64,000 bases of DNA from Branchiostoma floridae (Eukaryota; Chordata; Leptocardii; Amphioxiformes; Branchiostomatidae), in NCBI RefSeq assembly GCF_000003815.2, contig NC_049989.1:9410228-9474227 (forward strand), in the 5' to 3' direction. A program made the position numbers and the translations under genes. Shown in pieces: positions 20,555 to 64,000 of the stretch; the first letter of the stretch is position 1, and every line of letters starts with the position of its first letter. Under the pieces are notes generated by a model. The model saw only the letters and a program-made list of their open reading frames with translations, had not been told where the DNA came from and did not search any database.

Positions 20555-22694
20555 TTAGTCGAACAGTCCGAAGCCCATGTCGTCGTCGGACTCCTCTTCT
20601 GACTCTTCCTTCTTCTCTTCCTTCTTTTCTGTAATAGAAAAAGATAAAAAAGCATCAGCACCAAATATGGAAATACCTAAGAAATAACACATAGAGCCAT
20701 CAATATCATGTTCACAAGTAGGGATGCGTACCTAAACCCACGTTTAGGTACAGGTCCGGATTCGAATCCAGAGGTTTAGGTACAGGTCCGGACCTAATGA
20801 GTCCGGACCTAAATGCATGGCATTGAATATTATATCATAATATTATATTATGATATGTTACAACGGCAAGAAATGTATTAAAAAGGGTAGAAGCATGTTT
20901 GAACCAATAAAAACGTGTTTATTATGGTAGACACATGATGCAGCACAAATTTGACCCTTGTTGTTTTTCCCTCACTGGGGCTCAGAGACTGCTATGGTGA
21001 TTTCACAGTAATTTTATCTGTCAAAGTGGCCATCTCCTGACCTGTTATCCTGCCTGGCTGGCACTAATTAGATACAGGTCCAGTACCGGTACACCAGGGT
21101 TCCGGTATTTTTGTATCCGTACCTAATTGATTGTACCGGTACTGTATCGGTACACTGTACCGGTACACATCCCTATTCACAAGTATTTGTACAACATGAT
21201 TGAGAACAGAAATTTTCTGCAACAAGGTACATAAGAATACTTATGCAACAAACCACTTTTCATGGGGCAAAATATACGCCAACGGCTGGAAGAGAATATC
21301 ACCAGTACAAGACATTCTTGTCTGAGGGCAGGTCTTAGTGGGAACAAAAAAAGTAGCTAGTCGAACAATCCAAAGCCAAAATCTTCATCTTCTGAATCAG
21401 ACTCTTCAACTTTGGCTTCTTTCTTTTTTTGCTTTGTGGTAGTGGTGGAGGTAAGAGAGAGACACACAGAGAGAAGGAAATGACTACAATGATGGACTGT
21501 CATCAGTCCAAATGTGATATCAAAAACTACCATTTAGATTATAACTATCTACTATTCTAAAAGCACCAATTTTTTTTTCAAACAAATGGGAATGACAAGA
21601 AGTAAGGTTTCTTCTAATGGGGGCATGCAGTAGTGAAAAATACTACCCAAAGCATGCTGCCTTCTATAATTACAGTAGTAGCTACCAAATATACATGTAT
21701 ACTGTACACTTCGATTCAGACCTCTTAGAATGTCATAGAAAGCTCAACACAATCAGTGGTTATCTACAGGGTTTCGTACCTTCAGCAGCAGGGGCAGCAC
21801 CACCACCTGCAGCTGCACCGCCTCCACCTGCAGCAGCAGCTACACCGCCACCTGATGGCATGGACGACAGCTTGCCACGGCCTGGGAAAATGCAGACATA
21901 ACTTGATTAATGTCATTGCAACTATTGGTAGTCTATCTGTCTACCTCATTACAATAAGGACTCCATTCACGAGGGGCATGTTTTAACACAGAATTTAATC
22001 GTACTGTTGAGAAAGTATGGCAACACATCTTGTTAAAAGTAGATACGTCTGACAGATCTCAGGGTAGTTTAAAATATCAGCATCTTAGCTCAGCCGAAAG
22101 ATGGTGATAAACATACTCATCACTGAACTGTCTTTCACAAGTTGCCATGTTCTGGCTTTTTCCAGTACATGTACCAGGAATACGCCAAATAGCAATTACT
22201 CAGGCAACTGGATATGAATTTGTAAACGGTCAGACGTTTCAGGTAACATCTGTTATCTTTCGTCAGTGATACTGAAGAGATATGGCGGATATCAAAATTT
22301 ATATAATATAAAAACCTGCTCTCCATCCAGATTGCTTCAGTGTCACTGACGAAAGATAACTGATCTTATCTGAAATGTCTGACACTTTTCAGAATCATAT
22401 CCAGTTGCTTGAGTAACTGCTTTTTGGCCTATCTTACTACTTGGATGTCTAACCTTCAGCATTTATCACCATAAATAGTTTAAAACCCACAATAGGTGGA
22501 GGGAGCTTTTTATAGAAATTACCTGCAGCCATGACTTCTTCTATGTCCTTGCCCTTGAGCTCACCGATGACCTTGTTGAGCCTCTCATCTTCGGCGTCGA
22601 TGCCTACACTGCCCAGGATCTTCTTGATGTCGCCAGCGGAGGGGTTGGCATTCCCACCCAAGACAGCCAGGAGATATGCGGCCACGTAACGCAT
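20555..22694 (-). CDS. RPLP2: 60S acidic ribosomal protein P2
   Basis: Coding exons 22694-22523, 21881-21780 and 20628-20555 give 115 aa. An untranslated first exon lies at about 23473-23408. The protein starts MRYVAAYLLAVLGG, continues PSAGDIKKILGSVGIDAEDERLN (helical dimerisation domain), then a Gly/Ala hinge, and ends in the acidic tail EEESDDDMGFGLFD. P2 pairs with P1, and the dimers bind P0 to form the GTPase-associated stalk. The SD-x-GFGLFD tail contacts elongation factors (and is the docking peptide for several ribosome-inactivating proteins). The 5' UTR seems to start with a pyrimidine tract (CTTTTGCG), as in TOP mRNAs. AATAAA (minus) lies at 20465-20460. A second tail exon is annotated separately. 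Confidence 0.95.
20719..21175. mobile_element. hAT-like MITE with perfect 8-bp target duplication
   Basis: TTCACAAG occurs at 20711-20718 and 21176-21183. Terminal inverted repeats are TAGGGATGCGTACC and GGTACACATCCCTA. The interior is a string of GGTCCGGACC/GGTACC palindromic motifs. It lies between the two RPLP2 tail exons and carries a minus-strand AATAAA (20923-20918). No coding capacity. Confidence 0.85.
21357..21418 (-). CDS. RPLP2: alternative terminal exon of RPLP2 (second acidic stalk tail)
   Basis: Downstream of the Gly/Ala-hinge exon on the minus strand is a second copy of the P-protein tail, reading KVEESDSEDEDFGFGLFD then TAG. The hinge exon ends in phase 1 (GAA G|gt). With the AG at 21420-21419 as acceptor, the exon joins in frame and gives a GLFD-ending protein. 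The more upstream AG (21433-21432), nearer the pyrimidine tract, would put it out of frame. Nearly every codon shared with the other tail exon (20628-20555) differs at its third base, yet the acidic/GFGLFD pattern is kept. This is the mark of an old duplication under protein-level constraint. Usage cannot be shown from DNA. A decayed duplicate is the alternative. Confidence 0.6.
22182..22457. mobile_element. MITE family 2 copy with long inverted repeats (RPLP2 intron)
   Basis: Inverted arms carry GTTACTCAAGCAACTGGATATG-type sequence and ATCTTTCGTCAGTGA. The right end reads GGATGTCTAACCTTC. Related copies are at 38913-39073 and 43683-43759. The left end is uncertain. Confidence 0.55.
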
Positions 22695-29295: not shown

Positions 29296-57820
<28,525 letters not shown>

Positions 57821-59118: not shown

Positions 59119-59340
59119 NNNNNNNNNNNNNNNNNNNNNNNNNNNNNNNNNNNNNNNNNNNNNNNNNNNNNNNNNNNNNNNNNNNNNNNNNNNNNNNNNN
59201 NNNNNNNNNNNNNNNNNNNNNNNNNNNNNNNNNNNNNNNNNNNNNNNNNNNNNNNNNNNNNNNNNNNNNNNNNNNNNNNNNNNNNNNNNNNNNNNNNNNN
59301 NNNNNNNNNNNNNNNNNNNNNNNNNNNNNNNNNNNNNNNN
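59119..59340. other. assembly gap (222 N) inside a repeat
   Basis: The gap is flanked by near-identical GATGATGATGATGACACATTATG on both sides (59068-59093 and 59341-59363). The missing DNA is therefore probably a tandem array with a GAT-rich unit. Confidence 0.9.
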
Positions 59341-61963: not shown

Positions 61964-64000
61964 CTAAAATAGCTCCCAGCTGTCCATGCTGACCATCATC
62001 ATGGCGTTATGGAAGTGTCCAGGAGAGCAGTCGTGCAGGTAAGCCCAGACGGAGGCAGGGCCGTCCCCGCCCGCCCGCACCCTGTGGAAGCCTCCGATGG
62101 GGAGGGGCAGCTCCGTACCGACCGGGACGGGGGTGTGCACCTTCTTGATCTGTACAGAGACATCCCCGCTCACGGTTAGCAGTGAGATGTTAGAGCACGG
62201 CCCGCCAGCTTGGAGTGTCGTCTTGAAAACCTGGTGTACGTACAAAAACAGAACTAAAACTACTTATCTTTCTCCTAAATACGAATATGTCGATTTCTAG
62301 GGATATTGCACAAAAACGACCAGTTATCTTTCAAGTTGTTCAAGTCACGGCAAAGAGAGAAAAGTATAGACATGTTGGAGAGAGAGAGTAGAAGAGACAC
62401 AGAGAGACTCAAATATGTCAAAATGTTACGGATAAAGAGTGAGTGAGAAAAAGTGAGAGGACGACAGACAGTAAGGCAAATAGACAAATAGAAAGAAGGT
62501 AAGAGGCTTAAAAGAAAGAGAGAGCGCATCAAGAAAGAAAGAAGGAAAGGGACGATCGAAGTCCCTGGCCCCATGCAAAGACGTACCCCATTAGGTTTGT
62601 CCATGAAGAAGGACGCCATTTTCCCTTGATCCTTCGCCTCCTCACGGATTCGGTCCATCTCGGAAAAGTCGATCTCGGAGTCGGGCAGTCGGGTCTCCAG
62701 CCAGGGGTAGTGGAAGGCCCAGTAGTCAACAGTGGTGAGGTCAACTGATGGGTCAACCCATCTTTGGAAAGGCCTGAGGAGGACAGAGAAAAATGTCCAT
62801 ATGACCAAACGACTGACAACATTTAATGACTATTTGAGAATGGAAATGATCAAGTGTTCGTTCTGATCTGTAAAGTTATAGATTCTTGGGAGTGATCAGA
62901 ATTGCGTTTGGAAAAAAAGACAGGGCATTTACTTACACTTACTTACTTAATGTTCTCAAAACTGTTCGCTCACCTGTTATTCAGTGACCTCCACATGTCC
63001 AACCTCACACTTGCGGGGCTGCCCGTGGTCTCCAGGTGCCCCCTGCCGAGATGTTGGGCGTACTGCAGGATCAGTTCAGGGTCTGTTATCATTCTCTTCA
63101 TCTGCCTGGCATTGATCTGCAAAAGAAAATAAAGGTTGACAAAAATTTTCATTTAGGTTAACCGTTTTCATCAAAGTTTTAAAAGGTTTTAATTGGGTTA
63201 CTTCTATTGTCATGTGGTACTTACGTATACGTTACTTAGAATAAAGGTTATAAAATCATCATTATCTTTCATGCCAAAACATTTCTCTGATCCTAGTTAC
63301 CTAAAAGGACTATGTCTATATTGTTTCTTCTTCGCAACAAATGATACCTACCTGGTAGCCAGTGTGCACTACTTCAGCGCCACCTTGCGGTCTTATCAGA
63401 GTGCGCAGTATGACGTCTTCTGCATTCAACATCATTCTCCAGCTGAACTGATGGCCTTCCATGGTCCAGTTGACGTCACCTGGGTACAGCCAATGGCGGA
63501 AAGGCACAAGGCACTGCGCAGTGACGTAGCAGAAGAGAAGGGCGAATAGCGGACGACATAACTTTGATGTTTGAGCTTTCTTCCCATCTTTGCTTGTGGA
63601 GGGATATGCAGAATTGGCAAAGTTTTTCAGAGCCGGAATTTTTGAAACCGTCTCTGGTTCGATAAAAAGTATATTTGTGGCCATCATGACCCAAGGAAAC
63701 GTGCCGATTTTGAAAACGAAATGATTTGTCAAATGGAACCCAAATGTGAGGAGGAAGCCCATTGGTCGGAATGTCTTGCTGATCAGCATGAAGCCAATCA
63801 CAAAGTCGAAGACTAGTCCACCAGCGCTGAAGAAGTAACCAATCACACTAGGCGCATATTCAGGTGGTACAACCAATTCGGCCAATTGACGAATAGGTTC
63901 AACCCTATAGAACCAAGTCTTACATGGCTCACCACGGACAAACCCATCGTAATTCATTTTGGCGATACTCCCATAGAAAATACAGACAAATATCTGGAAT
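61964..64000 (-). CDS. GGCX: vitamin K-dependent gamma-carboxylase, C-terminal part (5' end outside window)
   Basis: Exons 63993-63352, 63116-62974, 62773-62587 and 62230-61964 (stop TAG) join in frame and give 412 residues. The first visible exon reads YGSIAKMNYDGFVRGEPC. Its Lys aligns with the human catalytic-base Lys218 region (KKLDADW). Transmembrane-like segments (GLVFDFVIGFMLI, FHLTNHFVFKIGTFPWVMMATNILF) follow, with the DVNWTMEGHQFSWRMML block shared with GGCX. The last exon encodes a lumenal beta-rich domain (LPLPIGGFHRVRAG). GGCX converts Glu to Gla in ER cargo using reduced vitamin K. The C-terminus ends soon after the beta domain (SMDSWELF), much shorter than in human. An invertebrate GGCX-like paralogue is possible. 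Confidence 0.88.
62372..62550. repeat. purine-rich simple sequence in a GGCX intron
   Basis: A GA/GAAA-rich tract (GGAGAGAGAGAG, AAGAAAGAAAGAAGG) between the last two GGCX exons. Low-complexity only. Long frames on either strand are artefacts. Confidence 0.6.

Follow-up and report, generated by a model that had tools for sequence, protein, structure and literature searches.

Does the RPLP2 gene of the amphioxus Branchiostoma floridae have one ending or two? The question was raised by a first-pass annotation of a 64-kb window from contig NC_049989.1 (64,000 bases, 322 of them N), the whole stretch analysed here. That annotation placed a second acidic tail, with its own stop codon, in the last intron of an RPLP2 gene, and proposed that the gene chooses between two terminal exons. 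Translation confirmed the tail: positions 21418-21357 of the minus strand read EAKVEESDSEDEDFGFGLFD and a stop, in the phase of the preceding hinge exon. Judged by its sequence, the resemblance is more than chance would give; the tail probably arose long ago as a copy of the exon that ends RPLP2, and it may have served as an alternative ending.

The RPLP2 gene and its canonical ending

The minus strand contains a complete RPLP2 gene, and its joined exons translate into a 115-residue P2 protein with a P2-type N-terminal domain, an Ala/Gly hinge and an acidic tail. The exons given for it earlier were correct in translation, both the hinge exon (21881-21780, ending in phase 1) and the distal tail exon (20628-20555). 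The Pfam family Ribosomal_60s (PF00428) matched the product at E = 1.6e-25 with the canonical tail and at 2.5e-21 with the second tail. With the second tail, the best match in the PDB was the P2 chain of 4v6x (human; E = 8.1e-39).

Splice sites were ranked with approximate vertebrate matrices, applied here to an amphioxus. Among all 7598 AGs of the window, the three acceptors of the gene reached percentiles of 97.0, 99.0 and 99.7; its two donors reached 99.3 and 98.5 among the 7718 GTs. The canonical RPLP2 product is ordinary.

A duplicate of the terminal exon

A six-frame scan of the window with the pattern [GA]F[GAS][LMF][FL][DE] found the two RPLP2 tails and nothing else. Local alignment of the two exons paired 20628, where the canonical exon begins, with 21427, and from there covered the canonical exon in full and in the same codon phase, with one gap of a whole codon. 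By blastn of the locus against the window, the pair was 68.5% identical over 73 columns (E = 4.6e-4). The similarity of the exon itself was reached in none of 1000 shuffles, and the flanks did not align (p = 0.47 on the 3' side and 0.13 on the 5' side). The first third of the aligned exon is a purine run, which adds little to the case for homology.

The alignment reached upstream of 21418, the start proposed in the first-pass annotation, as far as 21427. This suggested that 21418 is probably not the original start of the exon, with the purine run at that place being weak evidence. A retrocopy of RPLP2 was considered as the source and rejected: the similarity stopped at the exon edge, the RPLP2 flanks did not align, and no hinge-like codons were found upstream of the second tail.

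The homology over the whole canonical exon, the dissimilar flanks and a codon pattern unlike that of a free copy (below) together favoured a duplicate that had long been in use.

Signs of codon-level constraint on the second tail

The C-terminal motif of the P-stalk, EESEESDDDMGFGLFD, is reported to be a CK2 substrate and to be nearly the same in uL10, P1 and P2 (PMC11624264). The canonical exon is an ordinary member of this class, with an acidic stretch followed by MGFGLFD. The second tail resembles it in its acidity, its GFGLFD end and, in our own reading of the sequence, two serines with an acidic residue at +3. It differs in having Phe at the conserved Met, which puts it outside the motif as defined, and in a shortened and rearranged acidic stretch (DSEDED). 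Met preceded GFGLFD in all eight P-protein alignments displayed among the PDB matches, three for the product with the second tail and five for the tail alone as query.

The two exons differed at 21 bases over 23 codons including the stop, distributed 4, 3 and 14 over codon positions 1, 2 and 3. This bore out the third-position bias noted in the first-pass annotation. The meaning was kept in 17 of the 23 codons, leaving six amino-acid differences, and GFGLFD and the stop differed only silently. By the Nei-Gojobori method, 10.8 of 11.3 synonymous sites were different, which is saturation, and dN was 0.20.

Divergence was then simulated with a canonical copy that took only silent changes and a second copy that was free, and the changed residues were compared with the six observed. 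Six or fewer were never seen in 4000 runs with a free copy, which had 12.2 on average. With a copy that accepted a fraction of the replacements, this outcome was reached in 0.5% of the runs at a fraction of 0.5, 3.1% at 0.3, 10% at 0.2 and 33% at 0.1. In a second set restricted to the exon of the first-pass annotation, with the gap re-optimised in every run, the outcome never occurred in 1500 runs of a free copy; it occurred in 0.9% at one half and in 4.7% at 0.3. These results excluded full freedom since the duplication, and are compatible with moderate relaxation. The protein-level constraint proposed earlier was supported by the codon pattern and by the simulations. There is a strong argument, drawn from the sequence, that the second tail has been under selection at the protein level or descends from a paralogue that was.

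The second of these possibilities has a specific form, in which the tail was copied from the terminal exon of RPLP1 or RPLP0, brought the constraint of its source gene with it, and was perhaps never used. As a 23-residue query against solved structures, the tail of the first-pass annotation scored best with human P1 (20.6 bits), followed by uL10 (19.4) and human P2 (17.3). The canonical tail, too, failed to distinguish P1 from P2 (wheat-type P1 35.0, human P2 32.5, human P1 30.7). Against such a source, a recent copy should carry the Met, given the near identity of the motif in uL10, P1 and P2 reported in PMC11624264. We consider a paralogous origin improbable.

Splice acceptors of the second tail

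The AGs that could join the second tail to the hinge exon, 34 between 21765 and 21317, were examined. The first-pass annotation had held that the tail is in frame only through the AG at 21420-21419. This did not hold, as nine in-frame AGs gave GFGLFD and a stop. Their percentiles were 39.4 (21528), 51.2 (21498), 1.7 (21420), 0.2 (21417), 4.0 (21411), 33.8 (21405), 56.6 (21393), 66.0 (21390) and 23.6 (21384).

In position, the AG at 21433-21432 is the most plausible, standing behind a pyrimidine-rich tract (Table 1). A possible branch point, CTTAC at 21452, precedes it by 20 nt. Measured from this AG the exon would be 75 nt long, and the canonical exon is 74 nt. The AG at 21433-21432 is out of frame, as the first-pass annotation had said, and its product reads APAAE-AKKERSQS and a stop. 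A run of seven A residues separates it from the clear codons of the second tail; there are 49 runs of at least seven A or T in the window. Such homopolymer runs often vary in length, both in sequencing and among alleles. A simple point change that removed an acceptor immediately ahead of 21427, where the aligned exon begins, was dropped from consideration, since the preceding bases belong to the A run.

The AGs at 21420-21419 and 21417-21416 are in frame. Their distances to the A of the possible branch point, 33 and 36 nt, are within the range usual for an acceptor. The tail might be spliced through one of them, with the purine-rich exon serving as a splicing enhancer. However, both rank near the bottom of the 7598 AGs (above), two out-of-frame AGs (21433-21432 and 21424-21423) are nearer the pyrimidine tract and upstream of 21420-21419, and the alignment with the canonical exon runs on upstream of 21420-21419. 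This route is rated unlikely.

The interval between the two tails

The second stop and the canonical exon are separated by a transposon (Table 1), which we take to be hAT-like. A 10-base direct repeat is present at its edges (20711-20720 and 21176-21185), and its first eight bases, TTCACAAG, are read by us as a putative target duplication. Without the insertion, only 263 nt separate the second stop from the canonical exon. Before the transposon inserted, an isoform with the second tail as its end would probably have shared the cleavage site of the canonical exon.

Past the second stop, one donor stood at the 98.3 percentile (last exon base 21042), comparable to the donor of the hinge exon. It is within the transposon, and the best one outside reached only 92.9. 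This donor bears on the reading of the second tail as a poison exon, of the kind that other genes for ribosomal proteins are known to use. Splicing to an out-of-frame AG (21433-21432 or 21485-21484) would then yield a P2 that is cut short or changed and lacks its tail, and would lower the output of RPLP2. The better-scoring local AGs are indeed out of frame, and the product from 21433-21432 stops early after AKKERSQS. However, such an exon would leave the codon-level conservation of a complete GFGLFD tail unexplained, and we regard it as very improbable.

Alternative tail or recently dead exon

The interpretation in the first-pass annotation stood in one part, the presence of two homologous tail exons with strong signs of constraint. 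The splicing proposed for them was weak, with an acceptor at the 1.7 percentile. The argument for constraint is strong and that for splicing is not, which leaves the second tail as either an alternative tail or a recently dead exon.

We lean, tentatively and with somewhat less than even confidence, to the former. The second tail would have been an alternative ending of RPLP2 for most of its history, and the A run would be misassembled or allelic. The hinge exon would be spliced to the proximal tail, or skip it and join the canonical one, so that the proximal tail is, or was, spliced. The working acceptor would be the AG that follows the pyrimidine tract (21433-21432), and the one-base discrepancy over the A run would reflect an assembly error or an allelic difference and not the normal state. 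The proximal-tail isoform would probably use the polyadenylation site of the canonical exon.

This arrangement resembles that of KRAS, in which the 4A tail exon, with its own stop, lies in the intron before the canonical 4B tail exon, and the choice swaps a short disordered C-terminus. The second tail of RPLP2 likewise has its own stop in the intron ahead of the canonical tail exon. For KRAS 4A, transcripts are established and the acceptor works. The RPLP2 tail differs in that its acceptor is poor or out of frame and that it is known here from genomic sequence.

Several observations weigh against an alternative tail. No competent acceptor was found among the nine in-frame AGs with the approximate matrix; they ranged from the 0.2 to the 66.0 percentile, against 97.0 to 99.7 for the three other acceptors of RPLP2. 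The favoured AG at 21433-21432 stood at only 59.9 and shifts the frame by one base to an early stop. The highest-ranked AG between the hinge and the second tail, at 21485-21484 (89.6 percentile), is also out of frame. A search for 12 polyadenylation hexamers from the second stop to the distal exon found none outside the inserted element. As for constraint, the case is built on few codons, one pairwise comparison and an acidic sequence of low complexity. The frame stayed open to the stop in 25% of the neutral runs, so openness alone proves little, and the constraint could belong to a paralogue that was the source of the exon.

The other outcome is that the exon was long used and selected, but that the acceptor which kept it in frame has since disappeared from this lineage or allele, leaving only the canonical tail to be made. 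The poor in-frame acceptors, the plausible AG that is off by one base, and the transposon between the two tails are as expected from such a loss. On the other hand, GFGLFD and the stop, which differ from the canonical ones only silently, survived in just 0.5% of the neutral-copy runs. This suggested that any loss must be recent. We hold a recently dead exon to be a serious though lesser possibility, nearly as likely as the alternative tail.

Other features of the window

The features of the locus are collected in Table 1. The intron that separates the first coding exon from the hinge exon contains a fold-back repeat of about 253 bp (22180-22432), 80% identical to its own reverse complement. 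Pieces related to this repeat were found at 38903-39073 and 43679-43754, so it is probably a dispersed element.

Ten of the 78 long open stretches were scanned against Pfam, and three matched. The minus strand at 47128-47565 gave a Clathrin propeller repeat (E = 7.3e-13), and that at 34495-34821 a clathrin-repeat match below the cut-off (25.4 against 29.6 bits); the two are perhaps parts of a gene for clathrin heavy chain. Positions 63319-63999 of the minus strand, at the edge of the window, matched an HTTM domain and the lumenal domain of vitamin K-dependent gamma-carboxylase, and probably belongs to a gamma-carboxylase gene. Rfam at gathering thresholds gave no match in the window. Two runs of N mark assembly gaps (33117-33216, 100 nt; 59119-59340, 222 nt). 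A search of viral contigs for relatives gave 32 pattern matches, none of them confirmed by tblastn.

Table 1. Coordinates of the RPLP2 locus, as positions in the window
Feature	Position	Strand	Remarks
RPLP2 first coding exon, N-terminal dimerisation domain	22523..22694	-	ATG at 22694, ends in phase 1; from translation and splice sites, Pfam PF00428 on the joined product, and P2 of 4v6x
RPLP2 Gly/Ala hinge exon	21780..21881	-	102 nt, ends in phase 1; acceptor 99.0 percentile, donor 98.5 percentile
Pyrimidine-rich tract ahead of the second tail	21439..21483	-	37 of 45 bases C or T, a content that 0.17% of the 45-base stretches in the window attain, both strands counted
First AG past the pyrimidine tract	21432..21433	-	likeliest acceptor from its placement; 59.9 percentile; shifts the frame by one base
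Second (proximal) tail exon, as aligned with the distal exon	21357..21427	-	KKEAKVEESDSEDEDFGFGLFD and stop; upstream end within the seven-A run 21424-21430
In-frame AG of the first-pass annotation	21419..21420	-	very poor acceptor context, 1.7 percentile; second worst of the nine in frame
hAT-like non-autonomous element (putative)	20719..21175		457 bp; 14-nt inverted ends, 93% complementary; AATAAA at 20923 inside
Canonical (distal) RPLP2 terminal exon	20555..20628	-	74 nt, EKKEEKKEESEEESDDDMGFGLFD, ends SDDDMGFGLFD and stop; acceptor 99.7 percentile
RPLP2 AATAAA	20460..20465	-	90 nt past the canonical stop

Implications for the ribosomal stalk

The open-licence literature gave no description of alternative RPLP2 tails among the matches listed. 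A text search of open-licence papers for the second tail motif found no match, nor did one for amphioxus, RPLP2 and splicing that required four of five terms.

Alternative splicing of ribosomal protein genes has been discussed as a source of ribosome heterogeneity for the microexon isoforms of RPS24 (PMC11162997, PMC12686416). RPLP2 would be a similar case, with the difference that the swap would hit the factor-binding tail of the stalk. These tails are flexible and disordered in the human P-stalk (PMC3794596). The P-stalk activates translational GTPases and interacts with Gcn2; direct binding has been demonstrated for archaeal tails, and the function of the eukaryotic tail is not fully resolved (PMC11624264).

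The proximal-tail isoform would place beside the other stalk tails an arm with Phe for Met before GFGLFD and two serines in an acidic context. It is conceivable, but short of an even prospect, that alternative use of the two terminal exons gives this species two forms of the RPLP2 stalk protein, one of them containing this Phe. Ribosomes could then vary in their recruitment of translational GTPases or of the stress kinase GCN2. The different factor affinities proposed in the first-pass annotation are possible in this sense.

If the second exon is dead, it would be the record of a lineage that once had a two-tail system. If a selected second tail is indeed made from the same gene, nature would have supplied a clear-cut example of ribosomes that differ at a site whose function is defined.
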